Shown here in pieces: positions 2,987-42,166 of a stretch of 64,000 bases of DNA; within the stretch, counting starts at the first letter, position 1, and every line of letters starts with the position of its first letter. The position numbers were made by a program, and so were the translations under genes. The notes under the pieces were generated by a model. It was given only the letters and a program-made list of their open reading frames with translations, ran no database searches and was not told the origin of the DNA. Source of the DNA: Pantoea sp. CCBC3-3-1 (lineage in GTDB: Bacteria > Pseudomonadota > Gammaproteobacteria > Enterobacterales > Enterobacteriaceae); contig NZ_CP034366.1 of NCBI RefSeq assembly GCF_007981265.1, forward strand, positions 32,305-96,304, given 5' to 3'.

Positions 2987-3047
2987 TCAACTATATGCCG
3001 CTGAAATATGCGGCCTTCCAAAACTCCCACGTTGTTCCAGCTGTAAG

Positions 3048-3296
3048 TTATCCACATATCCCCTGAATAGATCCTAATAATAGATCCTAAGGAGATCACA
3101 AACAGATCCTAACAGATCACCATGCCTTTAATATGCTGATTTTTAACCTAAAATTGCCACTCAGCGTTAGTCTATTCATGGCGTTTGACAGTCTATTCAT
3201 GGTGAATATCATTCTATTCATGGCAAATATTAGTCTATTCATGGTAGATTGTTAGTCTATTCATGGCAGAGTAAAGAATTGCCCACATTATCCACA
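3048..3296 (+). other. Plasmid replication origin (DnaA boxes, GATC-rich repeats, iterons)
   Basis: Two perfect DnaA boxes (TTATCCACA) lie at 3048-3056 and 3288-3296. Between them are several short AGATCCTA/AGATCAC repeats (about 3065-3120) carrying five Dam GATC sites, then five direct iterons. A DnaA box, GATC-rich repeats and iterons immediately upstream of a Rep_3 gene form the standard architecture of theta-replicating enterobacterial plasmids. Confidence 0.85.
3167..3266 (+). repeat. Five direct iterons upstream of repA
   Basis: The 15-bp word TTAGTCTATTCATGG, with minor variants, begins at 3167, 3188, 3209, 3230 and 3252. The period is 21 to 22 bp, about two helical turns. These are the expected Rep binding sites for initiation and for autoregulation of repA. 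Confidence 0.9.
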
Positions 3297-3309
3297 ATGG
3301 AACCGTTAC

Positions 3310-4197
3310 ATGGAAAATGATAGCGAAATCAAAACTATAGTTGATGGTTTGGTTTATAAAGTTGATGAAAATGGCAAAACTTATTCACTCATTCCCAGCG
3401 CTAATAAAACGGTTCAGCCCATAGCTTTGATGAGGCTTGGCGTTTTTGTGCCATCCGCAAAAAATAAGCCAGTTCGCGGCATAGCAACTATTGATGCTTC
3501 AGAAGATTTTAGGGAGCTGGAGCTTGCAGCTGCAGAAGGTTACACAGACATCACTATTAGGGGAAGTCGGCTCGATATGAGCACGGACTTTAAGACTTGG
3601 ATCGGGGCCATCAGGGCATTCAGCAAGTTCGAAAAATATGGGGTCGATAAGAACCGGATAAAGATGCCGTTTACTGAATTTGCGAAGCTGACGGGCATTG
3701 CGGTCGATGATATCAATAAACGCTCCAGAGCTCGCTTTTTCCTTTCACTAACACGCCTTGCCTCCATAGTAATTTCGTTCAAAAACAAGAGTGGCACTAA
3801 GTCTTACGTCACGCACCTGCTAAATAGCGCGCAGTTTGATACTGAAGAAGACACAATAATTCTTGAAGGTGATTCACGCCTATGGGAGCTGTATACCTTT
3901 GACCATAAAGTTCTTTTACAATTAAAAGCTATTCAGGCTCTACCGCGCAAAGAATCAGCGCAGGCCTTGTATGTCTACATTGAGAGTATGCCGAATGGCT
4001 TTATTCAAGTGTCTCTTGACCGGCTACGTGAACGCTTAAACCTCACATCGAGCAAAAGTGCTCAGAACCTTGCCGTGCGTAATGCAATGAAGGAGCTTGA
4101 GCGTATTGGCTACCTGACTTATTCAGAGGTTAAGAAGGATGGTGACGTGTATTTCCTGATCCACTCTCGTCGGCCAGAGCTACTGCCAGGGGAATGA
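3310..4197 (+). CDS. repA: RepA, Rep_3-family plasmid replication initiator
   Basis: The 295-residue protein has the two-winged-helix layout of Rep_3 initiators (RepFIB, P1 RepA, pPS10). An N-terminal half ends near LTGIAVDDINKRSRARFFLSL. A C-terminal DNA-binding half contains ALYVYIESMP, DRLRERLNL and AVRNAMKELERIGYL. It should bind the iterons as a monomer, open the origin with DnaA, and repress itself and limit copy number by coupling iterons on different molecules. Iterons flank it on both sides. The iteron word differs from that of P1, so the incompatibility group is probably not IncY. Confidence 0.9.
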   Translation: MENDSEIKTIVDGLVYKVDENGKTYSLIPSANKTVQPIALMRLGVFVPSAKNKPVRGIATIDASEDFRELELAAAEGYTDITIRGSRLDMSTDFKTWIGAIRAFSKFEKYGVDKNRIKMPFTEFAKLTGIAVDDINKRSRARFFLSLTRLASIVISFKNKSGTKSYVTHLLNSAQFDTEEDTIILEGDSRLWELYTFDHKVLLQLKAIQALPRKESAQALYVYIESMPNGFIQVSLDRLRERLNLTSSKSAQNLAVRNAMKELERIGYLTYSEVKKDGDVYFLIHSRRPELLPGE

Positions 4198-4203
4198 TGT
4201 ATT

Positions 4204-4395
4204 GTTAGGTGATTCATGGAAATGTTAGTCAAAGCATGGTCAGCGTTAGTCTGTTCATGGTAGACGTTCGTCTATACATGGTAAATAGGTTTTTTTTGAT
4301 GGTGATTTGACCGAAAGGTAGCTGTGCCCGAGGTGGGCACCATGAATAGACTAACAAACAGGGCCAGTGCCTTACTTCACCATGAATAGACTAAC
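4204..4395. repeat. Degenerate and inverted iterons downstream of repA (inc-like locus)
   Basis: Four imperfect direct copies end in CATGG (about 4204-4219, 4224-4239, 4245-4260 and 4266-4281). Two perfect copies in opposite orientation, CCATGAATAGACTAAC, lie at 4340-4355 and 4380-4395. Such downstream arrays in RepFIB and P1 (incA) titrate Rep and mediate handcuffing, which limits copy number. Confidence 0.85.
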
Positions 4396-4404
4396 AGCGT
4401 GTAG

Positions 4405-4681
4405 AAAAGAGAATCCGCCGCGAATACGTGTCGGTTACTGGCCGGTGGCGTATGCCAACAAAAATCAGGCGGTGGCGAAACAATGCCTTACGGAGAGTAA
4501 TGCTTACTGGAAATGGCACACATCTTATAATCGGCATTCGGTAGGAGAAACGGTGATTAACTGTATCAAAGAGCTTTACGGAAAGATCTCACGTTACGCA
4601 AGTCGGTAAAGCCATGGCAATGATACGTGCGTTGAGCATAACGGCGTGGGCAAATCTGCCAGAAAGTGTACGAATTTCCTG
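4405..4681 (+). pseudogene. Remnant of IS5-family (IS903-like) transposase, 3' end
   Basis: Translation gives GYWPVAYANKNQAVAKQCL, then YWKWHTSYNRHSVGETV. This resembles the C-terminal part of IS903-type transposases (GYWPGEYADRNRAVANQRL, then WTTDYNRRSIAETA), including the terminal E region of the DDE triad. The frame is lost near 4605 and resumes as AMAMIRALSITAWANLPESVRIS before a stop at about 4681. Only the last quarter of the transposase remains and it is inactive. It sits exactly between the iteron array and the metabolic operon, suggesting that the cargo entered by an IS-mediated event. Confidence 0.75.
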
Positions 4682-4782
4682 AGGAAGTTATTGACAGGAA
4701 GGATTTTTATCTAAATCCAATTTAATCAACAAAGCCGATCCCCCTGGATAGAGTCCAAAAACGAACACAATGGCCCATACAG

Positions 4783-4856
4783 TGTTGTTCCCTCACTGAG
4801 CTAAGCAGTAATGGGAACAACATAATTATTGAAGGTGAAAGAAAAATGCACCTTTT
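4783..4856. terminator. Terminator region after the biosynthetic operon
   Basis: There are two hairpins. The arms GTTGTTCCC and GGGAACAAC lie at about 4783 and 4814. The arms AAGGTG and CACCTT lie at about 4832-4856 (seen as TCACCTT / AAGGTG on the minus strand). They lie just downstream of the last gene of the minus-strand operon. Confidence 0.5.
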
Positions 4857-4858
4857 AA

Positions 4859-6121
4859 TCAGGCGCACGTTACCGGAGTCCAAAACTGCAATTTTTCAAA
4901 ATCACGGCGTAAAATATTGCTATCCTCATTTTTAAAAATAAGAATCCCGGCAGTGTCAATTAGAGAGCGCGAGTTAACTTCTTCACCGACTTTTATATAC
5001 CAGTCAATATGGTAGTGGCTGGATATCTCCGGTTCGTTCAGTGAAATAACTTTACCGTGCCCTACCGGAAGTAGGGCTGAAACCATATTGTTACGTATAT
5101 CCGGATGGATATTATCAACTTCCTGTGAGTCCGCAGCGAGAAGCAGTGTAGCATCTATGAGATTGATGTCACTATTGGCTGTATGGAAAGGAACCCCAAG
5201 ACCGCCCGGAACACGCGCAGCAATTTCAAGGAAAATAATTTCTTGAGTTCTATCGTTTATGAATAACTCATGGTGAGTAGAACCGGAGGAAAAACCCAGA
5301 GCGTTAATAACAGTTTGATTGTAATCGAAAAGTTTATCATATAGACGCTGTTCTGTTACGGGAAAAACAGAGAGTGGTTTTCCTTGTACAAAATCGAAGT
5401 TAGTACATCCGAGTTCGAGAATTCCGGAGAAAAGCACTTTCCCATCACGAATAAATGAATCGCATTGGTACATTGTTCCGCTGATATATTCATCAATCTC
5501 ATATGCAAAAGTATGCTCATCATTTAATATCATATTCTGACATTTTTTCAGGTCATCTGGCGTGTTAATAATCATAACATTAAAGCTGCCAGCACCTGAG
5601 GTAGGTTTAACAAGCATTTTGCTCCCCAGTTTTTTTTCAAGCATCTCGTAATAACTAACTGGATCATCATTGAGCGAATTTAAATCGAGCTTTTCATATT
5701 TTGGAATGGCATGAGGGAGGGTCTCAGCGACACACTTTTTCATGGCTATCTTATCGCGAAATTTAATGACGGTTTCTTGATTGTCGCCGGGTATATTTAA
5801 CATATCACGTAACTTTGCTGCTGTAAGAACATTATCTTCCTGCTGGCAAAAGATACTGATTTCCTGTGAGGAACCTGCTATTTGAATTTCTTCATTGATG
5901 ATTTTTTCTACCTGAGAGAAGTTTAGCTCAGGCCGGAGGCTTTCAGTCAGTTGCCCATCAACACTGTACACTTTATCAATTTTTCCTTTCAACAGAGGAT
6001 GCACATCTTCAGATTTATGAATAATAAGAACCATTCTCGTATTATTATGTAAGTAATTCAGCACACTTTCTGAAGCAAAATGTAGATAAGACTGAGAAAG
6101 TAATATTACAATCTTTTTCAT
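4859..6121 (-). CDS. ATP-grasp ligase (amino acid/peptide ligase type)
   Basis: The 420-residue protein has an ATP-grasp core: the nucleotide-binding lysine and flexible loop (MLVKPTSGAGSFNVMI, near residue 170), an EIDEYISGTMYQCD strand, and the metal-binding EIAARVPGG near residue 300. The N-terminal 110 residues look like a preATP-grasp Rossmann domain (KIVILLSQSYLHFA). Relatives activate a carboxylate as an acyl-phosphate and join it to an amine, forming dipeptides or amides. Substrates cannot be read from sequence. It is the last gene of the operon and its ATG overlaps the preceding stop. In this pathway it probably performs the condensing or final amide-forming step. Confidence 0.85.
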   Translation of the reverse strand: MKKIVILLSQSYLHFASESVLNYLHNNTRMVLIIHKSEDVHPLLKGKIDKVYSVDGQLTESLRPELNFSQVEKIINEEIQIAGSSQEISIFCQQEDNVLTAAKLRDMLNIPGDNQETVIKFRDKIAMKKCVAETLPHAIPKYEKLDLNSLNDDPVSYYEMLEKKLGSKMLVKPTSGAGSFNVMIINTPDDLKKCQNMILNDEHTFAYEIDEYISGTMYQCDSFIRDGKVLFSGILELGCTNFDFVQGKPLSVFPVTEQRLYDKLFDYNQTVINALGFSSGSTHHELFINDRTQEIIFLEIAARVPGGLGVPFHTANSDINLIDATLLLAADSQEVDNIHPDIRNNMVSALLPVGHGKVISLNEPEISSHYHIDWYIKVGEEVNSRSLIDTAGILIFKNEDSNILRRDFEKLQFWTPVTCA

Positions 6122-7008
6122 AAAGCATTCTCCGTTTCATGGTAAGAAATGTTCATTCGATACAAAAGGCGGTAATCATTGGCGTTATTGCTAGGTGTTA
6201 TGCCATATCCACGATGGAGAGTTTGCAGGTTGTCCCATAGAACAAGGTCGCCGGCATAATACTCATGTTGATAAAATTGGGCATGCTCTAGAATGAAATC
6301 TTCAAGTTCATTAAGAAGTATTAGCGAAAGGTCAGGAGGCACCCCTACCAGAGAAAAGGCTGTCCCAGCAATTGCATAAAGCGATGCCTTCCCAGTCAGC
6401 GGATGTTTGTATATAAGCTGATGGGTCACTGGAGTGAGTCCATCTTTCTGTTGGGCTGTTAATTTCTGTCCAGGCTGTTGTGGATCTGCTAGTTGCCGAC
6501 GGTTTCCAAAAACATGATTGACACGAATTTTTTCAAGCGGCAGACCACAGGCTTTTTCAAGCTTGGAACATAAAACCACATTTTTTCTTAGCATGTTCAG
6601 CGCATCACACATGTCGATGAACTGGGTAAACCCACCATGAGAAGGTTCCTTTTTTGAAAGCATAGAGGTAATAAAGCCTACATTTGATTTGTAGGACATG
6701 TCACAGTGCCAGTATGTCCCACCGTCAAGTACTCCTTCATTTCCGCCATCGGCGTTGATTAAATTTGATATTTTAATAACGTCGGGACACCCATCCACAC
6801 TGAAATTCTGGAGAACATGGTAGTGTGGTTTTCCGAGATTATTTAAAAACATTCTGTATCGCAGCAAAGTCATATCTGAGCTTCTGATTACAATCATCTT
6901 ATAACGAAACAGAAGATCGGCAATGACATCTTTATTTAATTCAATTTCAATAGATTCCTGAATTTTTATTTCACAAACAAATTCATCAAGTAAAACCTGA
7001 TGCTTCAT
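6118..7008 (-). CDS. TauD/TfdA-type Fe(II)/2-oxoglutarate dioxygenase
   Basis: The 296-residue length is usual for TauD-like enzymes. The facial triad is visible as WHCDMSY (H101, D103) and a distal LHRG (H265). R280 in DYRLLYR is the probable 2-oxoglutarate anchor. Because the second ligand is Asp rather than Gly or Ala, the enzyme should hydroxylate, desaturate or epoxidise rather than halogenate. It overlaps the upstream gene by an ATGA-type junction and the downstream gene likewise, so it is a committed member of the operon. Its likely substrate is a free or ligated amino acid (inference). Confidence 0.88.
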   Translation of the reverse strand: MKHQVLLDEFVCEIKIQESIEIELNKDVIADLLFRYKMIVIRSSDMTLLRYRMFLNNLGKPHYHVLQNFSVDGCPDVIKISNLINADGGNEGVLDGGTYWHCDMSYKSNVGFITSMLSKKEPSHGGFTQFIDMCDALNMLRKNVVLCSKLEKACGLPLEKIRVNHVFGNRRQLADPQQPGQKLTAQQKDGLTPVTHQLIYKHPLTGKASLYAIAGTAFSLVGVPPDLSLILLNELEDFILEHAQFYQHEYYAGDLVLWDNLQTLHRGYGITPSNNANDYRLLYRMNISYHETENAL

Positions 7009-8072
7009 AATTCATACTCCGTTAATTTCATCGTATTAATTGATTTTGCACCTGCGATCATCCCGGCGACATACAACCCTTTAATGTCTGTTTTTCCGTC
7101 AGTGTTATCCACATATCCTTTACTGTTAATGTTGATTTGAATAAAGCTGTTTTCAGGAATCACCCCTGTAGTCCCGATGGCTGATATGAAAAGTGTATCG
7201 GATTTTTCAAAAGTAACTGACTTAATCCCATCTTTTATTGTTGGACAATTTACATTCTCATAAGATAATAACGCAATATGATCAGTGTTATTTTCCTTAA
7301 GCAAATTAGCAGTAAGGGAGTTATTATCAGCACAAAGTGAAGAATAAACATGAAAGCCAAGTGGAGTGATGTTTTTATCAGTCTGGCTTTTCCATATACG
7401 TTCTATCGTAATTTGACTAGGGGCTCTGAGGGCGAAACGGTCTTGTGTTTCTTGTGGGAACAAGCCAATATAGCTTCTGGCCAAAATTGTGGTTTTGAAA
7501 CCTAATGAGGCGGATGCATCAGCAAGTTGAAAGGCCGTATTACCCCCTCCTAATATCACTATATTACGGTATTTTGTAGTAATCGAGGAGGGGTTCTCCA
7601 TGAACATTTTATATGCGTTGAAGCAATCAATCGGGTCAATTAGCGAAAAAACTGCAGGTGTAGTTTTTGAAGAAATTCCCGTTGCAAGAACCAGATTATC
7701 TGAATAGTAGTATTTAAGGTCATCACCCACCATAACTTGACAGCGAAAACCTGAAAGATCTCTAGTGAAGTAAGATACTCTGCCACAAATTTTTCTTACT
7801 GGTAAGCTTTCAATGACATCTCTAACATAGGTACCGTACTCTAAACCGGTCGGGGTGAGTGCAGGTTCCTTCATGTAATCTTCTAGTTTCTTATCTGAAT
7901 CTTTCAGAACCAGCTCATTGCAATATGACTGCAACCGGCGGTTACCCATTATATCCATGCAGCCACCATATTGTTCACTGATCATAGTGACATCTTTCCC
8001 CATGGCCGATAAGCGTGCAGCTTCTATGGCTGCTGCAGGTCCTCCGCCAATTATGATAAATGTACTCATCAT
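7005..8072 (-). CDS. FAD/NAD(P)-dependent oxidoreductase
   Basis: The 355-residue product has two dinucleotide-binding fingerprints: GGGPAAAIEAARL at the N-terminus for FAD, and ILGGGNTAFQLADASASLG near residue 185 for NAD(P)H. Close to its end is a thioredoxin-reductase-like GLYVAGMIAG block. No CxxC redox centre is evident, so it is more likely a flavin mono-oxygenase or amine/imine oxidoreductase than a disulfide reductase. A GAGG ribosome site precedes the start. Its stop overlaps the dioxygenase start. Within the pathway it could N-oxygenate an amine or recycle reductant for the diiron oxidase (inference). Confidence 0.8.
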   Translation of the reverse strand: MMSTFIIIGGGPAAAIEAARLSAMGKDVTMISEQYGGCMDIMGNRRLQSYCNELVLKDSDKKLEDYMKEPALTPTGLEYGTYVRDVIESLPVRKICGRVSYFTRDLSGFRCQVMVGDDLKYYYSDNLVLATGISSKTTPAVFSLIDPIDCFNAYKMFMENPSSITTKYRNIVILGGGNTAFQLADASASLGFKTTILARSYIGLFPQETQDRFALRAPSQITIERIWKSQTDKNITPLGFHVYSSLCADNNSLTANLLKENNTDHIALLSYENVNCPTIKDGIKSVTFEKSDTLFISAIGTTGVIPENSFIQININSKGYVDNTDGKTDIKGLYVAGMIAGAKSINTMKLTEYEL

Positions 8073-8079
8073 GTCATCC

Positions 8080-9198
8080 TCATAAGTTCAACGATACAAG
8101 ACGATGACAGGCTGTATCCAGCGCTTCATCGGTAACTGCAAAAGAAAATCTCATCCAAGCGCCGTCATACTGTGAAAAAAAATTCTGAAGTGGTAACGGC
8201 GTGACACGGATTTCAGAGGTAAGGAACAGTGATTTTTCAAAGGCCCCTTGGCCTGGAATATTTTCGTGAGATGCCATGATGAAATGCCCGCCATCTGGTT
8301 TGATAACATTAAAGCCTGCTATCCGCATAGCATCTGTCAACTTCAGTGCGCGGGCATGATACTTGCGCCTGTTTTTTTCAACAGGGGCACCATTAAGCAA
8401 CCTGATAATGTTTATAGCCGCGTTCTGCAGAAGCGCTGGCTGACAATTTGACATATGAATATGGGCTTTTTTAGCAAGGGATAAGGCCTTCGTCTCACCT
8501 GTCAACCACCCTATACGTGCCCCTGTTGCAGCAAAACTTTTAGAAACAGAGCCCGCAATCAGTATTCTGCTGTTTTTGAAGATACGGTAGGGAGATGTTA
8601 TAGTTGTAAAATTAAAATCCCGATAAACGTCATCAAGAACAACTGCGCAGGCGGTGGTAGACTGGAGTGATGACAGGCGTTTCCAATCTTCATCGCTGAA
8701 GACATAACCTGTTGGGTTGTGGGGGGTGTTAATCAGTAAAACTGAGTCAGAGGATACTTTACGTCGAACCTCATCCCAGTCTGGCCTAACAAATGAGGAG
8801 GACATATGCATTGCAACGGTGTTGAAAGAAAGCCCGGCCATATGCGCCATGCCAGGATAGTATGAATAAAAAGGTTCAAAGCATATCACGTTTTTATATC
8901 CCATCCATTTAAAAGCATGTAGAGAGCATAATATAGATTCCGTGCAACCTGACGTTATCACAGTTTCATCAAAACATTCTTTATAAATGGAATAATTAAC
9001 AGCATGTCTGAGTTCGTGTATTCCTTCGGTTCGGGTATATTGCAAAGTCTGGTTTAGTGAATCCGTTATCTGTGCTTTCCAGAAATCATCAAAAGTGTTT
9101 TCAGGTATACCCTGCGAAAGGTTCACGGATCCTTTTTCAAGGGCTAGGTTGGTCATTTGTTGGAATACATTCAAGCATGGCGAAACGTCTTCCTTCAT
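8080..9198 (-). CDS. PLP-dependent aminotransferase, class I/II
   Basis: I start at ATG 9198, which follows an AGGTGA ribosome site, rather than the longer upstream reading. Fold-type I landmarks are present: NLSQGIPE near the N-terminus, NTPHNPTGYVF, VVLDDVYRDF, and SVSKSFAATGARIGW with the Schiff-base lysine. It ends with the usual RFSFAV block that carries the carboxylate-binding Arg. The closest recalled subgroup is kynurenine/methionine (YbdL-like) transaminases. It would interconvert an alpha-amino and an alpha-keto acid. It lies 7 bp upstream of the FAD gene in the same operon. Confidence 0.87.
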   Translation of the reverse strand: MKEDVSPCLNVFQQMTNLALEKGSVNLSQGIPENTFDDFWKAQITDSLNQTLQYTRTEGIHELRHAVNYSIYKECFDETVITSGCTESILCSLHAFKWMGYKNVICFEPFYSYYPGMAHMAGLSFNTVAMHMSSSFVRPDWDEVRRKVSSDSVLLINTPHNPTGYVFSDEDWKRLSSLQSTTACAVVLDDVYRDFNFTTITSPYRIFKNSRILIAGSVSKSFAATGARIGWLTGETKALSLAKKAHIHMSNCQPALLQNAAINIIRLLNGAPVEKNRRKYHARALKLTDAMRIAGFNVIKPDGGHFIMASHENIPGQGAFEKSLFLTSEIRVTPLPLQNFFSQYDGAWMRFSFAVTDEALDTACHRLVSLNL

Positions 9199-9252
9199 AT
9201 TATCACCTATTAAAGGCCGGCACATTTCTATGCCGACTTTTTCGAAGTTACA

Positions 9253-9957
9253 TTAGGCTGCTTTTTTTATGGCAAGGTTATTCAAACCCTGCCAGAAATT
9301 ATTCAGAGAAAATAGAACCTGCTTGGCCCCTTCAAGTATTTCTGACTTTGATTTTTCATCAGTAGCAGCGGCAAGCATAGCATCCTGTATCCAGTCGACA
9401 TGGTTACACTCAATGAGAATATGAAGATAAAAATAGTTATAGTCCTCATGCACCCATCCTTTATAAAGCCTAAATCCTTCATAAAGATTAGCAATCATTG
9501 GAAAACCAAACTCCTCAATAACGTAATGCGCACCAAGGGAAAAGGTTGGTGACTCTTGGAGGAAGAGACGCCTCAAATCGGTTACGAGATTCTCAGCCTC
9601 CTGCATATGAGTGATTTTATTATAATCGTCAAGTTTAACACCAATACCCGCGAGTGCTTTCTCGAACATGATAAAATGCGCATCGCCTTTTCCGTCGCCT
9701 AGCTCTGAGACCACAGTTCTGCAAATTTTAAGACGAATAAGTTCATCATCCACCCGGGGTGCGAGGCCCGACAGAATTTGCGGGAATGTTCTGATATAGT
9801 AGTAATATTGCTGGAAGATCTCTTTTACCGTTTCCAGAGGTAGGGCTTCTTTCTGGAAAGTTTTGTAAAAGCTGTTTTCATTTATTCCGGAGTCATCAAT
9901 CATTTTGCGAATGGTAGCGACAAGATTATAACTTTCATTGATATTACTTACTGTCAT
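9253..9957 (-). CDS. Haem-oxygenase-like diiron oxidase (HDO/TenA-like fold)
   Basis: The 234-residue all-alpha protein has the ligand pattern of haem-oxygenase-like diiron oxidases (CADD, UndA, BesC, SznF). E85 and H94 lie in SELGDGKGDAHF and E148/E149 in YVIEEFGF. H179-x3-E183-x2-H186 lies in LHILIECNH. The last block has the same spacing as the H-x3-D-x2-H of CADD, with Glu in place of Asp. Such enzymes use O2 to N-oxygenate amines or fragment amino acids and fatty acids. A clear AAGGAG ribosome site precedes it. Together with the dioxygenase and aminotransferase it suggests oxidative tailoring of an amino acid. Alternatively it could be a plain TenA-family protein, but the metal ligands argue against that. 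Confidence 0.8.
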   Translation of the reverse strand: MTVSNINESYNLVATIRKMIDDSGINENSFYKTFQKEALPLETVKEIFQQYYYYIRTFPQILSGLAPRVDDELIRLKICRTVVSELGDGKGDAHFIMFEKALAGIGVKLDDYNKITHMQEAENLVTDLRRLFLQESPTFSLGAHYVIEEFGFPMIANLYEGFRLYKGWVHEDYNYFYLHILIECNHVDWIQDAMLAAATDEKSKSEILEGAKQVLFSLNNFWQGLNNLAIKKAA

Positions 9958-9977
9958 AGCAACTCCTTATTTAAATT

Positions 9978-10907
9978 TCATTTGACTGATTTATTCATGC
10001 GAAAATTACTTATTATCAAGGTAATGCTGACCACTCCAATCATCACAGGTACCCAAGGGGAATGCCAAGGAGAAACAATATATTCTGCTCCAAGAGCAAT
10101 GGCTGGAACTAGAGGCGTGAGCATTGAAACCCGCATTGCGCCGAGTTCAAGAATCGCATGTTGAAGACAGAATATTGGTATAACAACGAACAGTAATGAG
10201 AGCGATATAAGTTTTATCAGCGATATCCAGTCTGTGGTGACTAAATTCATCAATTGATTCCTAGACAGCCAGGCTGTTACCATCAGAAGGATAATAAAAC
10301 GCGTTGTTAATATATTTACCGTCGTGGCACCTTCCCGATTTTTCAATCGCGCCGAAACATAAACATATATTCCCCCCGTCCCTCCAGCCACTGAAGCTAG
10401 AATAACCCCCTCAATGATACGCATGTCACCGGTGCTAATCGTATTCTCGGCACTGTACAATCTTACAATTACGAGGAGGAAGACAGAAATTGCAATTAGT
10501 ATGGGACCTAAGATCTGTGTGGATGATTTTTTATTAGCTATCACGCCCAGTATCATAACAATCACTGGAATCCATCCCTGATAGATGGCTGACTCAACTG
10601 AGGCTTCTATACGTTGTAACGCCATAAACATAAATAGCCAACTGGTGAGTGTTAGGACATTCAACCAAAAAACAGACAACCGATTTTTTAGTAAAAAAGC
10701 AAGGGGATTTTCATTTCTTATAATGCTCATAGCTAGGAAAACAATTTGAGCGATTAAAAGAGTGAAAAAGGTAAGCATGGCTCCACTTATTTTGGTAAAA
10801 CTCATCGAAACCCAAACTGCAGAAAGTGAAGTAAAAATACAATAAAGTGTTATTGCGACCCACCCTGCTACGCTCCGGCGTGTACTTAACGGTGCTATTA
10901 TCACCAT
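9978..10907 (-). CDS. EamA/DMT-family membrane exporter
   Basis: The product has about ten hydrophobic segments over 310 residues, the 5+5 helix layout of drug/metabolite transporters of the EamA family. I prefer ATG 10907, which follows a GGAAG site, over the longer start at 10928. It is the first gene of the six-gene operon. An exporter at the head of a small biosynthetic operon usually removes the product, giving self-protection or release to competitors. Its substrate cannot be predicted. Confidence 0.85.
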   Translation of the reverse strand: MVIIAPLSTRRSVAGWVAITLYCIFTSLSAVWVSMSFTKISGAMLTFFTLLIAQIVFLAMSIIRNENPLAFLLKNRLSVFWLNVLTLTSWLFMFMALQRIEASVESAIYQGWIPVIVMILGVIANKKSSTQILGPILIAISVFLLVIVRLYSAENTISTGDMRIIEGVILASVAGGTGGIYVYVSARLKNREGATTVNILTTRFIILLMVTAWLSRNQLMNLVTTDWISLIKLISLSLLFVVIPIFCLQHAILELGAMRVSMLTPLVPAIALGAEYIVSPWHSPWVPVMIGVVSITLIISNFRMNKSVK

Positions 10908-10928
10908 AGTGTCTTCCATACATTTCAT

Positions 10929-11754
10929 AAGTTAAATTTACGTTTTAGTAATACCTCAGCTTAAAGAAAGAAGGCAACACGTTTCATAGGCATATTTGTT
11001 ATATGGGTTTTCATGAGAGGGTGAAATAGAATATATGCACCATGATTGATCTATTAATTAACAATTATCCATAATGGTGCAGATCATTGGAGTCTCTTTA
11101 AACTATCTGACTTTTGTATGAGAATTTATTCCTGCATCCAGATAAATCTCGCAACTGATGAACGTCTAGAAAATATAATGATTCAAAGAATCGTTCATTA
11201 CTACAGGTTCCTTAGAAAAACGGTAGGTCCTTTGTATAATCAAAAATAAATTTTTACAAGACTAGATAACTGCCTGTTTAAAAACATGTATTTATAGTTA
11301 TCTTGCGTGTTTTTGCTCTCGTGCTGGTAGTTTCCTGCCGCTATTTTAGGCAATTTTTCGTCAGTGTATGAATTTATAAATATTACATTTCGCCATAGTA
11401 ACTCCCTGATCTAACCTGCCAGGCAGGTATTCAATATTCGTATAAACCTTATGAAATATTGAACCAGTAGGGTGCGTATTTTATTGTGGCCTCGTTTGCA
11501 GATGCCCTATAATGTCGCAAGCCCATGATGCATTGTCCAAGCTACTAGTCCTGACCATTTCCTCTTGATTAAGGATAGCATTGCATCGACCCGTTGAATT
11601 CACAGTACAAAACGGACATCAATATTGAACTCCAGCACTGAGAACAACCATTCGTAGGTAAATCAGTTCTGGGAAGTTGAAGGGTTATGAGTAAATATCA
11701 CTTGCTCAAAGGGATGTTTTTACTCACCACCCCGGATTATTGCATTTATTATGG
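10929..11754. other. AT-rich gene-free region upstream of the biosynthetic operon
   Basis: About 0.8 kb has no convincing ORF. It holds the promoter side of the operon. One visible element is an 8-bp inverted repeat (TGCACCAT at 11036-11043 and ATGGTGCA at 11074-11081, 30 bp apart), a possible regulator site. No complete IS end or att-like repeat was recognised. It probably includes the second boundary of the inserted cargo. Confidence 0.5.
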
Positions 11755-12303
11755 TTAACCCTTCTGTACCTTCATTCCGCGTTGCGGTTTACTGCGGCCC
11801 TTATTGGGTCCCTTTTTACGTGCTCCCGTGAACCATGATGGATAGGCGGACGGAAGCTTGTGCTGCTTGCGGTATTCTACCAGCTGCTGCCATGCGTGCT
11901 TCCGGTCATCCTGGCTGATCACTTCTACCGGTTGGCCATCAATATTACGGCGGTATCGCATCATAAAAAGGCGTGTGCGGTAAACTAGTGAGGCACAGCA
12001 GGCGCGCAGTGACGCCTGGAGCCGCTCCTCTGATACGTCCAGACCCCGGCGTACGATAGACTTCAGCATGTCGTCTTTGATGCCGCTTTTCATCGGCAGC
12101 GGGTAGTTACCAACAAACAGGGCAGGGAACAACTCCTGAACCAGGCGTCGCTGGCTGCGATTCTTTTTGCGTGTGGCAGAGGTACCCTGCGATCTGAATG
12201 AATCTTTGATCTTCTGGTGGGTAGCCTGAGGCGGGCACGAAACAGTGCGTGGCTTAAATTTCTCGTGAGGTTTCCGGTGCTGATCTGCTGCTTGCTGTGT
12301 CAT
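11755..12303 (-). CDS. ProQ/FinO-family RNA chaperone
   Basis: The 182-residue protein has the family core ELFPALFVGNYPLPMKSGIKDDM followed by RRGLDVSEERLQASLRACC. Basic, disordered-looking tails lie on both sides (C-terminal KKGPNKGRSKPQRG). Relatives bind hairpin and terminator ends of small RNAs and pair them with targets; plasmid FinO does so for FinP/traJ. It starts 14 bp after the winged-helix gene, so it shares its operon. In a phage-plasmid it may assist an antisense RNA that controls replication, conjugation-like functions or immunity (inference). Confidence 0.85.
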   Translation of the reverse strand: MTQQAADQHRKPHEKFKPRTVSCPPQATHQKIKDSFRSQGTSATRKKNRSQRRLVQELFPALFVGNYPLPMKSGIKDDMLKSIVRRGLDVSEERLQASLRACCASLVYRTRLFMMRYRRNIDGQPVEVISQDDRKHAWQQLVEYRKQHKLPSAYPSWFTGARKKGPNKGRSKPQRGMKVQKG

Positions 12304-12317
12304 GGAGATTATCCTGT

Positions 12318-13244
12318 TCAGTTTGTTTTTCTGTTTGGGAAGTGGCGCGCCAGAACGTTGGCCGGATTAAATCCGCGCGCCTTGGCTGCAGTGGTGCGTT
12401 CTGCTGCATTTTGAAGAACCTCATCGTGCAGTCGGTTAGCTTCACTGAATCGGTCGCTATTGAAACTGGTACTGGTCGTGCGGCTGGTTGCTGGTTTTCC
12501 GGAAACGAATGCATGGCGTCTGGCGGCCTTTTCGAGCCTCTGGCGTTCTGCCTGCCTCTCCTCACGCTCTCGCATTTGTTTACGTGAATAATCATTCGCC
12601 TGGGTAGTAGCCCGCTCGCTTTTAGCTGTGGTCCAGCTTTTGACCTTCTGAATGACAGAAACCTTTTCAGCGGGAGCTGAATTGTCTTTTGAATTCTTAA
12701 CGTCAAAAGATACTAATATTTCCCGAACAATCTGATCAGGGGCGGCAGGTAAATTTGATCGGGGGGTGGGCTCACCAGAAAAAATATCCCGGATGCTGTG
12801 CAGGGTGCAGGCAAAGGCAGATTTGGCCTTTTCGATAGCTTCACGAACTCGTGAATCCAGGGTTTTGCAAAGACTCATAGCTGCAGAAATGAAGTCTCGC
12901 GTGAACTGGTATTCAGTCGGCATCTGACCGCGTCCCTTGGGGGAGTTATCAAACACAAGGGTACTGGTGAGGATGCCTGCTTCTACGACTTTAACCATAT
13001 TCCGACGAATCGTTGCTTCAGTGGTACCACACAGTTCGGCCATCGTTTTGCGGGACATCGTGATTTTGTATGCGGATGTCGCTGCTGCGACTTTGCAGAC
13101 CTGAGATAGTATTACCCTGGCTGCACGCGACAGGTTGGCATTGCTTATTAACTCAATGGCTTGACGTAAACCGTAGCTGCTCAACTCACCGTTTTTCTTG
13201 AACGAAGAGCCTTTGTGCTGTATATTCATACACGAATTAAACAT
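12318..13244 (-). CDS. Winged-helix DNA-binding protein, replication-protein-like
   Basis: Starting at ATG 13244 (AGGA site six bases upstream), the product is about 308 residues. A GTG at 13292 that overlaps the upstream stop is an alternative. The first half has a helix-turn-helix arrangement (SRAARVILSQVCKVA, then SRKTMAELCGTTEATIRRNMVKVVEAGIL) as in plasmid replication or transcription regulators. The second half is a long charged coiled-coil-like tail rich in RE/ER/QR. A copy of the 14-bp motif in minus orientation lies inside the gene at 12703-12716. It is co-transcribed with the ProQ/FinO gene. Confidence 0.7.
   Translation of the reverse strand: MFNSCMNIQHKGSSFKKNGELSSYGLRQAIELISNANLSRAARVILSQVCKVAAATSAYKITMSRKTMAELCGTTEATIRRNMVKVVEAGILTSTLVFDNSPKGRGQMPTEYQFTRDFISAAMSLCKTLDSRVREAIEKAKSAFACTLHSIRDIFSGEPTPRSNLPAAPDQIVREILVSFDVKNSKDNSAPAEKVSVIQKVKSWTTAKSERATTQANDYSRKQMREREERQAERQRLEKAARRHAFVSGKPATSRTTSTSFNSDRFSEANRLHDEVLQNAAERTTAAKARGFNPANVLARHFPNRKTN
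12703..12716 (-). promoter_or_regulatory. TTAGTATC-family motif (intragenic)
   Basis: On the minus strand it reads TTAGTATCTTTTGA. It matches the first ten positions of the consensus and lies inside the winged-helix gene, so it may be a chance or secondary site. Confidence 0.4.
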
Positions 13245-13288
13245 TGTATTTCCTGTTAGGGCCGCCGCCACAGCGGCCTTTTCTTTTT

Positions 13289-13524
13289 TCACTTTCCGGG
13301 CTTCGCGATAGACCGCGTAACGCTCATAAAACCATTCTCAATATCCGTCGCGCCAATCTGTAGCCAGCGCTCATCTATTTCTAATATCTCTTCGATACTG
13401 ACGTTTTTCAGACGGTAGATGAAATTCGGCACCTGCTGTTCCATGATTTTTTCTTCGTTAATAAGGTCAATTTCGGCTTGGTTCAGTTCACGGTGTTTTT
13501 GATAATTCGGTGTTGATTTTCCAC
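13289..13524 (-). CDS. Acb2/Tad1-like hairpin-domain protein, frame disrupted
   Basis: A GTG at 13524 with an AGGA site starts the typical MENQHRIIK opening. The frame stops after 13 codons. Adding one base in a run of five As restores HRELNQAEIDLINEEK, and the ATG frame at 13443 carries on to RWLQIGATDIENGFMSVTRSIAKP. This is the pattern I associate with the Acb2/Tad1 hairpin-domain family, small phage proteins that sequester cyclic-nucleotide signals of CBASS or Thoeris defence. Either the gene is frameshifted, the sequence has a homopolymer error, or ribosomes shift at the A-run. Its stop overlaps a GTG of the winged-helix ORF. It lies first behind a motif-type promoter or operator. Confidence 0.6.
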
Positions 13525-26130: not shown

Positions 26131-26679
26131 ATGCAATTTGAATCTGTATTTTGCGTGGCATCGGGGCCGTCACTGACAAAAGCAGACTGTGAACGAGTTG
26201 AAGCGACGGGATTACCTGTTGTGGCAGTGAATAACGCATATGGCATGTTTCGACAGCCATACGCCCTGTTCGCTGGTGATCTGGCTTGGTGGGAGGCTTA
26301 CGGTGCTGCAGTTCCTGCAAATATCCGCCGTTGTACCGCCTCCAGAGCCGCAACATTTCGCTATGACGTTGAGTACCAGCGTTTTGGCGGACCTGATGTG
26401 AGATTTAACTCCGGCTCAATGGCCATTCAGTTTGCTGAAAGTCTTGGCGCGAAAACTATCTACCTGCTGGGTTACGACTGTTCTGTTAAGGAAGGTGTTC
26501 ACTTTCACGGCAGGCACGGCGGCAGGCTAAGAAACCCTACCGATGTAAGCGTAGCCAAGTGGCAAAAAGAATTCGCCGATGTGCATGCACAGCTAGCGCA
26601 CGTTGAGATTTTTAACTGTTCCCGGAGAACTGAACTGACATGCTTCCCATTAAAAAGCCTGGAGAAGGTGATCGTGTGA
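26131..26679 (+). CDS. DUF115-like / LPS-core-type sugar-phosphate protein
   Basis: The 182-residue product begins with FCVASGPSLTKADCERV. This GPS nucleotide-binding-like loop is typical of DUF115/MptE-like domains found in phage and bacterial glycan loci. Later blocks are FNSGSMAIQFAESLGAKTIYLLGYDCS and HFHGRHGG. It overlaps the next gene, which has the same domain architecture. With the following glycosyltransferase and kdsB, it suggests a role in host surface polysaccharide modification. The exact reaction is unknown. Confidence 0.7.
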   Translation: MQFESVFCVASGPSLTKADCERVEATGLPVVAVNNAYGMFRQPYALFAGDLAWWEAYGAAVPANIRRCTASRAATFRYDVEYQRFGGPDVRFNSGSMAIQFAESLGAKTIYLLGYDCSVKEGVHFHGRHGGRLRNPTDVSVAKWQKEFADVHAQLAHVEIFNCSRRTELTCFPLKSLEKVIV

Positions 26680-27242
26680 TCATCGTGGCTTCCGGCCCTT
26701 CCGCTGAAGGCTTTTTGCCGCCGCGTGGGGTACCGGTTATCGCTGTAAATGGTGCCATTGACTGCCTGAGCCGTGCCTCTTATTTTTTCACGTTAGACCC
26801 CTCGCCGATTAATCTGCGCCGCCTGCGCATCCGGCGGCGCAACGTGAAATATTGCGCTGCAGGCGTTACGGTGCCTGGGGTGTACGAATTTGAGCGCCTT
26901 TCCCTGCGAGGCAAAGAGCCAGCAAGCAAACACTCTCCTGAGTGGTGGCTGTGGCGCTGGTCAGCACGTCCTGTGTTGTCTGAAGACCCCAATGTAATCC
27001 ACAACGGTAACTCTGCCTGGGGAGCACTGGGACTCGCTCACCATCTGGGGTTTAAGAATGTGGCGCTGGTGGGCGTTGATGCCACCCAGGAGCCACGGGT
27101 ACATAGCGGCGGTACGCCAAATAACCTTTCGCATCTGCCACTACTGTTCAAATCTGCACTGCCTCAAATCAACGTAGTTTCCTGCGGGAAACTCAACTCA
27201 ATCCCTCAAATGAGTATGAAAGAATGGCTGAAAAACTCCTGA
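26640..27242 (+). CDS. Second DUF115-like protein
   Basis: The 200-residue product is a paralogue in layout of the preceding one: VIIVASGPSAEGFLPPRGVPVIAVNGAIDCL at the start, then NVIHNGNSAWGALGLAHHLGFKNVALVGVDAT. It overlaps its upstream neighbour by 40 bp and its downstream neighbour by 19 bp, a tight translational chain. It probably handles a nucleotide- or phosphate-linked sugar (inference). Confidence 0.7.
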   Translation: MLPIKKPGEGDRVIIVASGPSAEGFLPPRGVPVIAVNGAIDCLSRASYFFTLDPSPINLRRLRIRRRNVKYCAAGVTVPGVYEFERLSLRGKEPASKHSPEWWLWRWSARPVLSEDPNVIHNGNSAWGALGLAHHLGFKNVALVGVDATQEPRVHSGGTPNNLSHLPLLFKSALPQINVVSCGKLNSIPQMSMKEWLKNS

Positions 27243-30245: not shown

Positions 30246-30292
30246 GCAGTCAGGGCTGCCAGCAGGTGGCCTTTTTTATACCCGGAGTAAAT

Positions 30293-31057
30293 ATGTCGTA
30301 CACCCTAAACCCACCGTTTACCGTTGTCATTCCTGCGCGGTATGGCTCAACACGCCTCCCCGCAAAAGCCCTGATCAATATCAACGGCCGCCCAATGATC
30401 ACTCATACCATCCAGCGCGCCAAAGAGTCAGGGGCGAACGCGGTGATTGTGGCCACAGATCATAAAGATATTTTGGATTTGGCTGTTCGGCAGGGTGTCG
30501 GAGCAGTCATGACGTCCGACAGCTGCGCCAGCGGCACTGACCGGATCGCAGAGGCTGTCAGCTTGCTGAGCATCGACCCGGATACCATCATTATCAATTT
30601 GCAGGGCGATGAACCGATGTTTCCGGGCGTGCATCTCAGTGAGCTGGCTGACACTTTCGCCTACAGCGGATCAGAGATGGCCACAATAGGTGTTGAGGGG
30701 TTAACCGCAGCGCAACTGGCCGATCCGAACGTGGTTAAAGTCGTGACTGACAATTTTGATAGCGCGCTCTATTTCTCGCGTGCCGGCGTGCCATTTTCCC
30801 GTGACGGCCAGCTGGTGGATGACTCAAGCATGCGCCGTTACTTCATGCGTCATGTAGGGGTTTATGCCTACCGCGCCGGGTTCGTGCAGGATTTTGTGAA
30901 CTGGGGGGTGTCACTGCTGGAATTCGCAGAGAAGCTGGAGCAGCTACGCGTGTTGGCTAATGGCTGCCGTATCCAGATGCTCCGCCTTAAAGACCTGGCC
31001 GCCCATGGCGTGGATACGCCGAAAGATCTTGCCCTGGTTCGCAGTCTGCTTATGTAG
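30293..31057 (+). CDS. kdsB: CMP-Kdo synthetase (3-deoxy-manno-octulosonate cytidylyltransferase)
   Basis: From ATG 30293 (GGAG site) the product is 254 residues, close to E. coli KdsB (248). It begins VVIPARYGSTRLPAKALININGRPMITH with the nucleotide-binding loop. It continues with VIVATDH, SGTDRIAEAV, IIINLQGDEPM (metal-binding) and MRRYFMRHVGVYAYR. It activates Kdo as CMP-Kdo for addition to lipid A or capsule linkers. Hosts already have a chromosomal copy, so a phage copy suggests altered inner-core or capsule assembly after infection or during lysogeny. It lies 2.3 kb downstream of the DUF115/glycosyltransferase cassette. Confidence 0.93.
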   Translation: MSYTLNPPFTVVIPARYGSTRLPAKALININGRPMITHTIQRAKESGANAVIVATDHKDILDLAVRQGVGAVMTSDSCASGTDRIAEAVSLLSIDPDTIIINLQGDEPMFPGVHLSELADTFAYSGSEMATIGVEGLTAAQLADPNVVKVVTDNFDSALYFSRAGVPFSRDGQLVDDSSMRRYFMRHVGVYAYRAGFVQDFVNWGVSLLEFAEKLEQLRVLANGCRIQMLRLKDLAAHGVDTPKDLALVRSLLM

Positions 31058-40459: not shown

Positions 40460-40888
40460 ATGTCGTCTTTAGCCATACACAGCCCCGTTTCCGAACCCGA
40501 AATCATTCTGCTACCCTTTTTCGCCGACGGGTGTGCGGCAGGATTCCCCAGCCCGGCTCAGGACTATATTGATGCAGAACTCGATCTGAATGAACTATGT
40601 ATTCGCCACCGCAGCGCCACCTATTTTGTCCGGGCTGTCGGCCACAGCATGACTGAGGCAGGCATCAAGGACGGCGATCTGCTGGTTGTTGATAAATCAG
40701 AGAAGGCTCTGCACGGCGATATAGTGGTGGCTGCCATCGACGGTGAATTTACCGTTAAAGTCTTGCAGACTCATCCGCGCCTCGCTCTCCGCCCGATGAA
40801 TCCCGCTTTCCCCACCCTTTACCCTGACCCGGATTCACTAGAAATATTCGGCGTGGTGATGTGGTTTATTCACGCAACACGTGGGTGA
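40460..40888 (+). CDS. umuD: UmuD-type SOS mutagenesis protein
   Basis: The 142-residue product matches E. coli UmuD (139) along its length. RecA-stimulated self-cleavage should occur between A27 and G28 in CAAGFPSP, where E. coli has Cys-Gly. The serine/lysine dyad is S63 (GHSM) and K100 (FTVKV). The cleaved form joins UmuC to make polymerase V. It is a good full-length gene, with umuC starting immediately after its stop. P1 carries only a UmuD homologue (HumD), so this operon is more complete. Confidence 0.95.
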   Translation: MSSLAIHSPVSEPEIILLPFFADGCAAGFPSPAQDYIDAELDLNELCIRHRSATYFVRAVGHSMTEAGIKDGDLLVVDKSEKALHGDIVVAAIDGEFTVKVLQTHPRLALRPMNPAFPTLYPDPDSLEIFGVVMWFIHATRG

Positions 40889-42166
40889 ATGATGTTTGCC
40901 CTTGCCGATGTGAACAGTTTCTATGCCAGCTGCGAGAAGGTATTCCGGCCCGATCTGAAACATGCGCCGGTCATTGTGTTGTCGAACAATGATGGGTGTG
41001 TGATTGCGCGCAGTGCCGAAGCTAAGCGGCTGGGTATCAAAATGGGCGTGCCGTGGTTTCAGCTGAAGACGCAATCTTTCGCCCGCCATGTCGTAGCCTT
41101 CTCCAGCAATTATTCGCTCTACCATGACATGAGCCAGCGGGTAATGCGCGTGCTTGAAGAGCTGTCGCCGGCTGTGGAGCAATACAGTATTGACGAGATG
41201 TTTCTCGGCATCGCCGGCGTCGATCGCGCTATGCCATTTGAAGACTTTGGTCGGCAGGTTCGTGAGCGGGTAAAAGCGGTGACCGGTCTGACAGTCGGTG
41301 TAGGCATGGCACCGACAAAAACATTAGCAAAATCAGCGCAGTGGGCAAGTAAAGAGTGGCCCCAGTTCGGTGGCGTCCTTGCTCTAACATATAATAATCC
41401 AGTGCGTACAGAAAAGTTGCTTTCGCGGCAGCCTGTTGAGGAGGTATGGGGCGTTGGCCGTCGCATCAGCAAAAAACTGAATGCAATGGGCGTCATCACT
41501 GCCCTCGATCTGGCACGCAGCAACACTGCCTTCATCCGGAAAAACTTTAGCGTGGTACTTGAACGAACGGTCAGGGAGCTGGCTGGCGAATCCTGCATTG
41601 CGCTGGAAGAGGCGCCGCCTACAAAACAGCAAATTGTCTGTAGCAGGAGCTTTGGCCAGCGCGTCACATTACTGGACGATATGCAGCAGGCACTTTGCAA
41701 ACATGCTGAACGGGCTGCGGAAAAATTACGTCAGGAAGGCCAGTACTGTCGGCACATCTCGGCATTTATCAAGACCTCACCTTTCAGTCCGGGTGAGGTG
41801 TATTACGGCAACGTGGCGGGCGAAAAGTTACGCGTGGCCACACAGGACACGCGGGATATTATTGCGGTCGCAATGCGCAGCCTGAAGCACATCTGGCGGG
41901 ATGGCCACCGGTACGCCAAAGCGGGCATTATGCTTGGAGATTTCTGCCCGGAAGCGCTCGCACAGCTCAGCCTGTTTGATGAGTATCAGCCTCGGGCTAA
42001 CAGTGAAAAGCTGATGGCGGTGCTGGATAAGGTGAACCATTCAGGGTTGGGTAAAATCTGGTTTGCTGGCCAGGGTATCGACCCTGAGTGGCAGATGAAA
42101 CGGGATATGCTTTCTCCCGCATGGACAACGAGGTGGAAAGACATTCCAACTGCCAGACTGACTTAA
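40889..42166 (+). CDS. umuC: UmuC-type Y-family DNA polymerase
   Basis: The 425-residue product is full length. Palm motifs are visible: FALADVNSFYASCEKVF (first metal Asp) and YSIDEMFLGI (second). The thumb and little-finger regions end near PEALAQLSLFDEYQ, the beta-clamp binding peptide. It carries out error-prone translesion synthesis with UmuD'2. It is immediately downstream of umuD under the same LexA box. It may aid phage or plasmid survival and raise host mutation after DNA damage. Confidence 0.95.
   Translation: MMFALADVNSFYASCEKVFRPDLKHAPVIVLSNNDGCVIARSAEAKRLGIKMGVPWFQLKTQSFARHVVAFSSNYSLYHDMSQRVMRVLEELSPAVEQYSIDEMFLGIAGVDRAMPFEDFGRQVRERVKAVTGLTVGVGMAPTKTLAKSAQWASKEWPQFGGVLALTYNNPVRTEKLLSRQPVEEVWGVGRRISKKLNAMGVITALDLARSNTAFIRKNFSVVLERTVRELAGESCIALEEAPPTKQQIVCSRSFGQRVTLLDDMQQALCKHAERAAEKLRQEGQYCRHISAFIKTSPFSPGEVYYGNVAGEKLRVATQDTRDIIAVAMRSLKHIWRDGHRYAKAGIMLGDFCPEALAQLSLFDEYQPRANSEKLMAVLDKVNHSGLGKIWFAGQGIDPEWQMKRDMLSPAWTTRWKDIPTARLT

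Follow-up and report, generated by a model that had tools for sequence, protein, structure and literature searches.

A six-gene cluster predicted to make a small oxidised amino-acid or dipeptide product occupies the cargo interval of a P1-type phage-plasmid from Pantoea

The operon described here lies on a P1-type phage-plasmid of Pantoea sp. CCBC3-3-1, in a stretch of 64,000 nucleotides (the window; bases 32305-96304 of the 96,304-base contig NZ_CP034366.1) to which all positions below refer. Its closest described counterparts are small clusters built around haem-oxygenase-like diiron oxidases (HDOs). Operons joining an HDO with an ATP-grasp ligase were predicted in 2010 (PMC2922099), and at least 25 types of HDO/ATP-grasp cluster were reported among 1447 HDO neighbourhoods in 2026 (PMC13185094). 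The mangotoxin cluster mboABCDEF of Pseudomonas syringae resembles the Pantoea operon in combining an HDO, an ATP-grasp amino-acid ligase and a flavoprotein in a small cluster free of nonribosomal peptide synthetases (NRPS) (PMC13185094). In mangotoxin biosynthesis, ATP-grasp ligases assemble a peptide that is then modified by an HDO dependent on a flavin reductase; the product, an antibacterial peptide active against E. coli, sets a precedent for the scheme proposed below (PMC13185094). The mbo cluster has two ligases, the deiminase MboE and the flavin/Fe2S2 reductase MboB (PMC13185094). Identity with mbo was therefore rejected: judged by Pfam, the six Pantoea genes include one ligase and lack a second, an arginine deiminase and an Fe2S2 reductase domain, and they add an aminotransferase, a TauD-type enzyme and an EamA transporter.

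Other HDO pathways offer partial parallels. The Bes terminal-alkyne amino-acid cluster of Streptomyces cattleya also uses an Fe(II)/2-oxoglutarate (Fe/2OG) enzyme, a pyridoxal-phosphate (PLP) enzyme and a ligase; in place of its halogenase and its PLP enzyme of another type, the Pantoea operon encodes a TauD-type enzyme and a class-I aminotransferase, and it contains an additional flavoprotein. In the hormaomycin and belactosin pathways (HrmI/BelK and HrmJ), an HDO and an Fe/2OG enzyme form a pair that acts on lysine. DdaF (dapdiamide synthase) and the BacD-type ligases of bacilysin biosynthesis are ATP-grasp enzymes that couple an unusual amino acid with a second one; the other steps of their pathways differ. 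Lysine is documented as the substrate of HrmI (PMC13108848), and PolF is an HDO that, acting alone, desaturates and cyclises a free amino acid (PMC12614342).

We propose, with a probability of a little over one half (about 0.55), that the six genes, from the cargo interval of the phage-plasmid, direct the synthesis and export of a small oxidised compound of amino-acid or dipeptide type, which is likely an antimetabolite. The features of the operon are the following:

9978..10928, minus strand: membrane transporter of the EamA family, a predicted exporter whose gene opens the operon (316 aa; Pfam EamA, 3.1e-10)
9253..9957, minus strand: haem-oxygenase-like diiron oxidase, HDO (234 aa; Pfam Haem_oxygenas_2, 7.6e-17)
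8080..9225, minus strand: class-I PLP aminotransferase-like enzyme (AT), of the methionine/glutamine-aminotransferase type (381 aa; Pfam Aminotran_1_2, 1.9e-40)
7005..8072, minus strand: flavoprotein (FAD) of the type binding two dinucleotides, flavin adenine dinucleotide and NAD(P)H (355 aa; Pfam Pyr_redox_2, 1.7e-13)
6118..7008, minus strand: TauD-family Fe(II)/2-oxoglutarate oxygenase (296 aa; Pfam TauD, 6.3e-26)
4859..6121, minus strand: predicted ATP-grasp amino-acid ligase (LIG) (420 aa; Pfam ATP-grasp_4, PF13535, 2.9e-9)
4846..4868, minus strand: terminator-like hairpin with a T-run across the end of the ligase gene, a weak signal (9 such sites in the region against 5.8 +/- 2.3 by chance)

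All six open reading frames (ORFs) are intact, with zero internal stops, and form a contiguous minus-strand run from 10928 to 4859. The LIG/TauD and TauD/FAD junctions overlap by 4 nt, and the remaining gaps measure 7, 27 and 20 nt. The initial annotation had described an unbroken minus-strand operon of overlapping or nearly adjacent genes and had assigned the six families; the ORF map agrees with the former and Pfam searches with the latter. It had found the EamA gene itself, while the operon end it gave, 10907, corresponds to a downstream in-frame ATG of an ORF that reaches 10928. The AT-richness it had noticed relative to the phage backbone is borne out, as GC content is 0.404 in the operon, 0.501 in the rest of the window and 0.515 in the contig outside it. 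The composition of the operon is foreign to its carrier; the low-GC stretch (about 3001-12000) is broader than the operon and takes in the replication gene repA.

The HDO belongs to the haem-oxygenase fold (structure model with a predicted local distance difference test score, pLDDT, of 94.1). Across an alignment of 26 sequences, E85, H94, E148, H179, E183 and H186 are invariant and E149 is nearly so, and by these residues the protein carries the pattern of three histidines and three carboxylates that is a metal-ligand trait of the HDO superfamily (PMC13108848). Among the matches listed in profile and fold searches, its closest solved relatives are BesC, CADD and HrmI. BesC is the nearest of them (profile E 1.4e-27; Foldseek 22% identity, template-modelling score 0.79-0.82), yet the protein falls far under the NCBIfam equivalog cut-off for BesC, 4-chloro-allylglycine synthase (73.3 bits against 500), and was rejected as such. 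MboA structures were absent among the fold and sequence matches listed for the HDO, which excludes nothing.

In the aminotransferase, the Schiff-base lysine K229, the PLP aspartate D198 and N170 are invariant in 12 sequences. The protein fits class I PLP aminotransferases, and its reaction could be transamination or a GntC-like cyclisation. The flavoprotein model (pLDDT 93.6) has YpdA, small flavin monooxygenases, thioredoxin reductases and N-hydroxylases as its nearest relatives. A thioredoxin-reductase-type disulfide oxidoreductase was rejected, as the protein is devoid of a CxxC motif (its cysteines are at 38, 51, 96, 111, 150, 247 and 276), and we predict a reductase partner or a monooxygenase. 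The iron triad of the TauD-type enzyme (H101xD103...H265) is invariant in 11 sequences. Among solved structures, the ligase matches the L-amino acid ligase 4wd3 (7.4e-11), and it has at least 59 relatives at E <= 1e-40, 35-78% identical. It appears related to L-amino acid ligases of the ATP-grasp type, with peptide-bond formation as its predicted activity; DdaF was rejected as an identity (23.5 bits against a cut-off of 840). The EamA homologues in other clusters are 42-69% identical. The complete HDO ligand set and the intact HxD...H of the TauD-type enzyme had both been read from the single sequence in the initial annotation, which had named loss of catalytic residues on alignment as a way to overturn its reading; none is lost in the HDO, TauD and AT alignments.

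The strongest argument for a common pathway comes from other bacteria. A scan for the HDO with one genome per species yielded 14 loci, to which a DNA search added a plasmid of Burkholderia glumae, typed as mobilizable (MOBP), to give 15 comparison loci. The complete six-gene set is found together in 10 of them (L001 and L007-L015), including the B. glumae plasmid, Prodigiosinella, pseudomonads and Catenulispora, so the homologues are not scattered in unrelated contexts, an outcome that had been named in advance as a test. A Mixta locus (L005) holds five genes plus a ligase cut off by the contig end. Three gene orders occur (EamA-HDO-AT-FAD-TauD-LIG, HDO-AT-FAD-TauD-LIG-EamA and FAD-EamA-HDO-AT-TauD-LIG), which makes simple hitch-hiking unlikely. 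Co-occurrence of the six genes thus exceeds chance. In large protein database searches for HDO and ligase, which scored part of the possible candidates and whose counts are therefore lower bounds, 112 HDO relatives were found; for 16 of the 59 ligase relatives, the longest contig had exactly the length of the longest contig of an HDO relative, and the two were taken to be one contig.

The genes are also under selective constraint. Comparison with the copies of Mixta and Prodigiosinella, 11 gene pairs in all, gave a proportion of differing synonymous sites (pS) of 0.77-0.89, which is saturated, against 0.12-0.40 for nonsynonymous sites (pN). In a 26-row HDO tree, the window groups with Mixta, Providencia, Prodigiosinella and Vibrio ruber, adjoining actinomycetes and apart from pseudomonads, with moderate support at the relevant forks (80-93 in the Shimodaira-Hasegawa-like approximate likelihood ratio test, SH-aLRT).

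Neighbouring genes add to this picture. Homologues of an M20 peptidase and of a major facilitator superfamily (MFS) transporter come after the cluster in four of six pseudomonad-type loci (L008, L011, L012 and L015; the comparison left out L009, and Pfam was run for the L011 copies only), which would fit the unmasking of a dipeptide. Part of the neighbours were annotated, and the conserved ones among these are a helix-turn-helix (HTH) regulator, the M20 peptidase and the MFS transporter.

The more divergent actinobacterial loci are less complete. Flavoprotein, HDO and AT are all present in L006 (Streptomyces), L017 (Microbispora) and L018 (Streptomyces), and the ligase matches of the latter two are weak only. 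L016 carries an HDO without the other five genes, about 1.2 kb from a contig end. The HDO adjoins an Amidohydro_2 protein in L016 (9887-11894), L017 (7263-19286) and L018 (7013-16285); L017 and L018 further hold, with the flavoprotein and aminotransferase, thymidylate-kinase-like proteins and large ORFs without a Pfam match. These three loci possibly represent another pathway on the same core.

From these data a working scheme can be drawn. We regard HDO, flavoprotein and AT as the core, because they are kept together in divergent actinobacterial loci that lack the remaining genes or have others in their place. On an amino-acid side chain, C-H abstraction by the diiron HDO would open the way to desaturation, ring closure or C-C scission, much as with MboA, PolF and BesC. 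The flavoprotein would supply electrons from NAD(P)H or carry out a separate oxygenation, the AT would set the keto or amino state and the TauD-type enzyme would add a further oxidation. The ligase may then join the unusual amino acid to a second one at the expense of ATP, masking it, and EamA may export the product. Once imported as a peptide or amino acid, it would inhibit the target cells. This would benefit the phage-plasmid, because lysogens would outcompete their neighbours and infection would hand on the trait.

Several observations count against this scheme. No member of the cluster family has a known substrate, product or activity, and none of the operon genes was recognised as a resistance or target gene. 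Transport by EamA proteins can run inwards or outwards, and a single ligase could couple partners that are not amino acids. A promoter scan found 20 sites where 21.1 were expected, that is, chance level. The Streptomyces locus L006, on a contig of 13.2 kb, has HDO, AT, TauD and a distant flavoprotein and is without ligase and EamA. The database searches found 19 relatives of the flavoprotein against at least 112 of the HDO, and in 12 loci whose HDO is 57-82% identical, the flavoprotein reaches 26-58% and the AT 33-46% only. As flavoprotein and AT are far less conserved than the HDO, the products may differ between lineages. Finally, the AT frame is broken in L005 (3301-4460, Mixta sp. Marseille-Q2659) and in L015 (7959-9080, Pseudomonas amygdali ICMP 3918), which may be true decay or sequencing error.

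The cluster is rare. HDO relatives (E <= 1e-20) were found in one of 394 genomes sampled from the order and in one of 369 sampled from the class. For ligase relatives (E <= 1e-60) the count was one in 37 genomes of the genus. Each time the source genome alone matched; other species of the order do carry relatives of the cluster, outside these samples or below the match threshold. None of 50,697 phage records holds an HDO relative, and the only one among 72,556 plasmid records is that of B. glumae, in collections that may omit records very close to the source. A DNA search of 20,395 E. coli records returned nothing near-identical to the operon region, and searches of viral contigs confirmed no relative of the HDO or of the ligase. 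When the DNA of the operon region was compared with a phage collection, nine records matched, all within 11096-11605, outside the genes. Four of the six operon proteins have no PHROG family match and the other two match broad families only. The suggestion of the initial annotation that this is unusual phage cargo stands in so far as no phage record searched holds an HDO relative; the cluster itself is not confined to this phage and also occurs in bacterial chromosomes and on the mobilizable B. glumae plasmid. The initial annotation knew of no characterised cluster with this gene set, and none turned up in our literature search, although operons of the HDO and ATP-grasp kind were already predicted in 2010. 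Our literature search returned no product for the gene set; the full list of the at least 25 types, which may include this cluster, was not compared (PMC13185094). Genes of biosynthetic pathways have been reported on phage-plasmid-like elements in general terms (PMC13221032), and that search turned up no P1-type element carrying such a cluster in full.

The carrier had been called a P1-type phage-plasmid in the initial annotation. PHROG matches for the 20 ORFs searched include a replication protein, portal, terminase, tail, baseplate, PmgS, Ref and partition proteins, and the ORFs of window and contig are collinear with the Pantoea plasmid pEuc3 (94,967 bases) over most of the contig. A 166-codon open frame spans the contig ends, as expected for a circle. 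By gene content and conserved order, shared with pEuc3 and with the Citrobacter plasmid pRHBSTW-00697_3, the carrier is such an element. In the Citrobacter plasmid the order is lysozyme-repA-[cargo]-proQ-pro-portal-darB, with proteins 49-74% identical to those of the window, and the operon fills the repA-proQ interval that matches this slot. The features around it are:

3163..4396: repA replicon, with iterons spaced by 21 nt before and after repA (3310-4197, plus strand); left boundary of the cargo slot
11096..11605, no strand assigned: mobile-element DNA, likely decayed, upstream of the operon, recognised by DNA similarity
11755-12303, minus strand: ProQ/FinO-family gene that bounds the cargo slot on the right; its counterpart in pRHBSTW-00697_3 is 63% identical and occupies the same position
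12318-13292, minus strand: gene for an HTH protein, with no match in pRHBSTW-00697_3

The two relatives differ in what they carry. With the same backbone order and slot, pRHBSTW-00697_3 holds IS66, KilA-N, Icd-like and unnamed genes there. Plasmid pEuc3 has the same backbone order, repA elsewhere, one hypothetical gene between lysozyme and pro, and a Vat acetyltransferase on the opposite side of the lysozyme gene. The repA product is 80% identical to the pEuc3 initiator and 49% to that of Citrobacter. The gene lies beside the lysozyme gene in the window and in the Citrobacter plasmid, while the 80% identical initiator of pEuc3 adjoins ref; since repA sits in different places, the replicon itself has moved within this group of phage-plasmids. 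Upstream of the operon, about 440 bp within 11096..11605 are 65-69% similar to plasmid DNA; two records annotate an insertion sequence (IS) there, of the IS110 family or IS4321, and most of the listed records annotate nothing. It is followed by 45 bp with a 91% match in the host chromosome and in Klebsiella phages. Both pieces are probably scars of the arrival of the operon.

Further accessory genes were noted on these elements. The annotation of pEuc3 includes, besides the Vat-type acetyltransferase, a lipid II-degrading bacteriocin gene, other competition-related cargo in the group. The window encodes a CTP_transf_3 cytidylyltransferase (30266-31057, plus strand, 1.9e-53) and a phrog_2111 protein (26640-27242, plus strand) with a weak sialyltransferase match (6.3e-6), for which a surface-sugar modification is possible. 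It also has a UmuDC-like pair (40460-42166, plus strand); pEuc3 holds two such pairs, whose UmuC copies are 57% and 52% identical to that of the window. Contig 3 of the host is a further plasmid with VirB-type transfer genes, and 95% of the 20 kb searched is covered at 84% identity by E. coli plasmids.

Among other explanations, the one that survives best, and which we consider a real though minority possibility, is an exported small molecule that is no weapon: a signal, a metallophore, an osmolyte or a plant-active compound. Relatives of the cluster include plant-associated and marine bacteria, and signals of the valdiazen/leudiazen type reportedly derive from HDO pathways as well. However, two oxygenases with an L-amino acid ligase, and the M20 peptidase and MFS transporter of pseudomonads, resemble masked antimetabolite clusters, and no receptor or TonB uptake gene appears among the conserved neighbours in the annotated part. 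An improbable second option is a catabolic or detoxifying island in which the oxygenases and AT would degrade an amine or amino acid imported by EamA. Catabolic pathways often include TauD, class-I aminotransferase and FAD enzymes, and EamA could work inwards, but an ATP-spending ligase fits poorly and the nearest characterised relatives of the HDO (BesC, HrmI and CADD) are biosynthetic. Even less probable is a silent, decaying island caught by transposition: the adjoining IS-like remnants, the chance-level promoter signal and a GC content not adapted to the carrier would agree with it, whereas the six intact frames and the constraint on nonsynonymous relative to synonymous sites would not. 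An anti-phage defence island, suggested by the cargo-slot position and by reports of defence systems on phage-plasmids (PMC11652158, PMC13221032), is the least likely of all, as a search with 5027 PADLOC models (E <= 0.001) returned no family for the six operon proteins or for the two adjoining ones, eight proteins in all.

We thus favour a biosynthetic pathway with an exported, probably inhibitory product. A bolder version, which we put forward tentatively and hold to be rather less probable, is that this P1-type element performs chemical lysogenic conversion: infection would install all six genes of a pathway to a dipeptide antimetabolite that is new, oxidised and masked, and the HDO-flavoprotein-AT core would be a new route to a reactive amino-acid warhead shared by Gram-negatives and actinomycetes. 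If so, a virus would spread an antibiotic factory instead of a toxin or resistance gene.

In summary, the conserved set of HDO, flavoprotein, aminotransferase, TauD-type enzyme and ligase represents an undeciphered oxidative amino-acid pathway. With six genes and no NRPS, it is compact enough for in vitro reconstitution of the kind achieved with mangotoxin. Should the product be an antimetabolite, a single infection by a temperate phage would carry an entire antibiotic pathway from one bacterium to another, turning the infected cell into a producer and linking the ecology of phage-plasmids with chemical competition.

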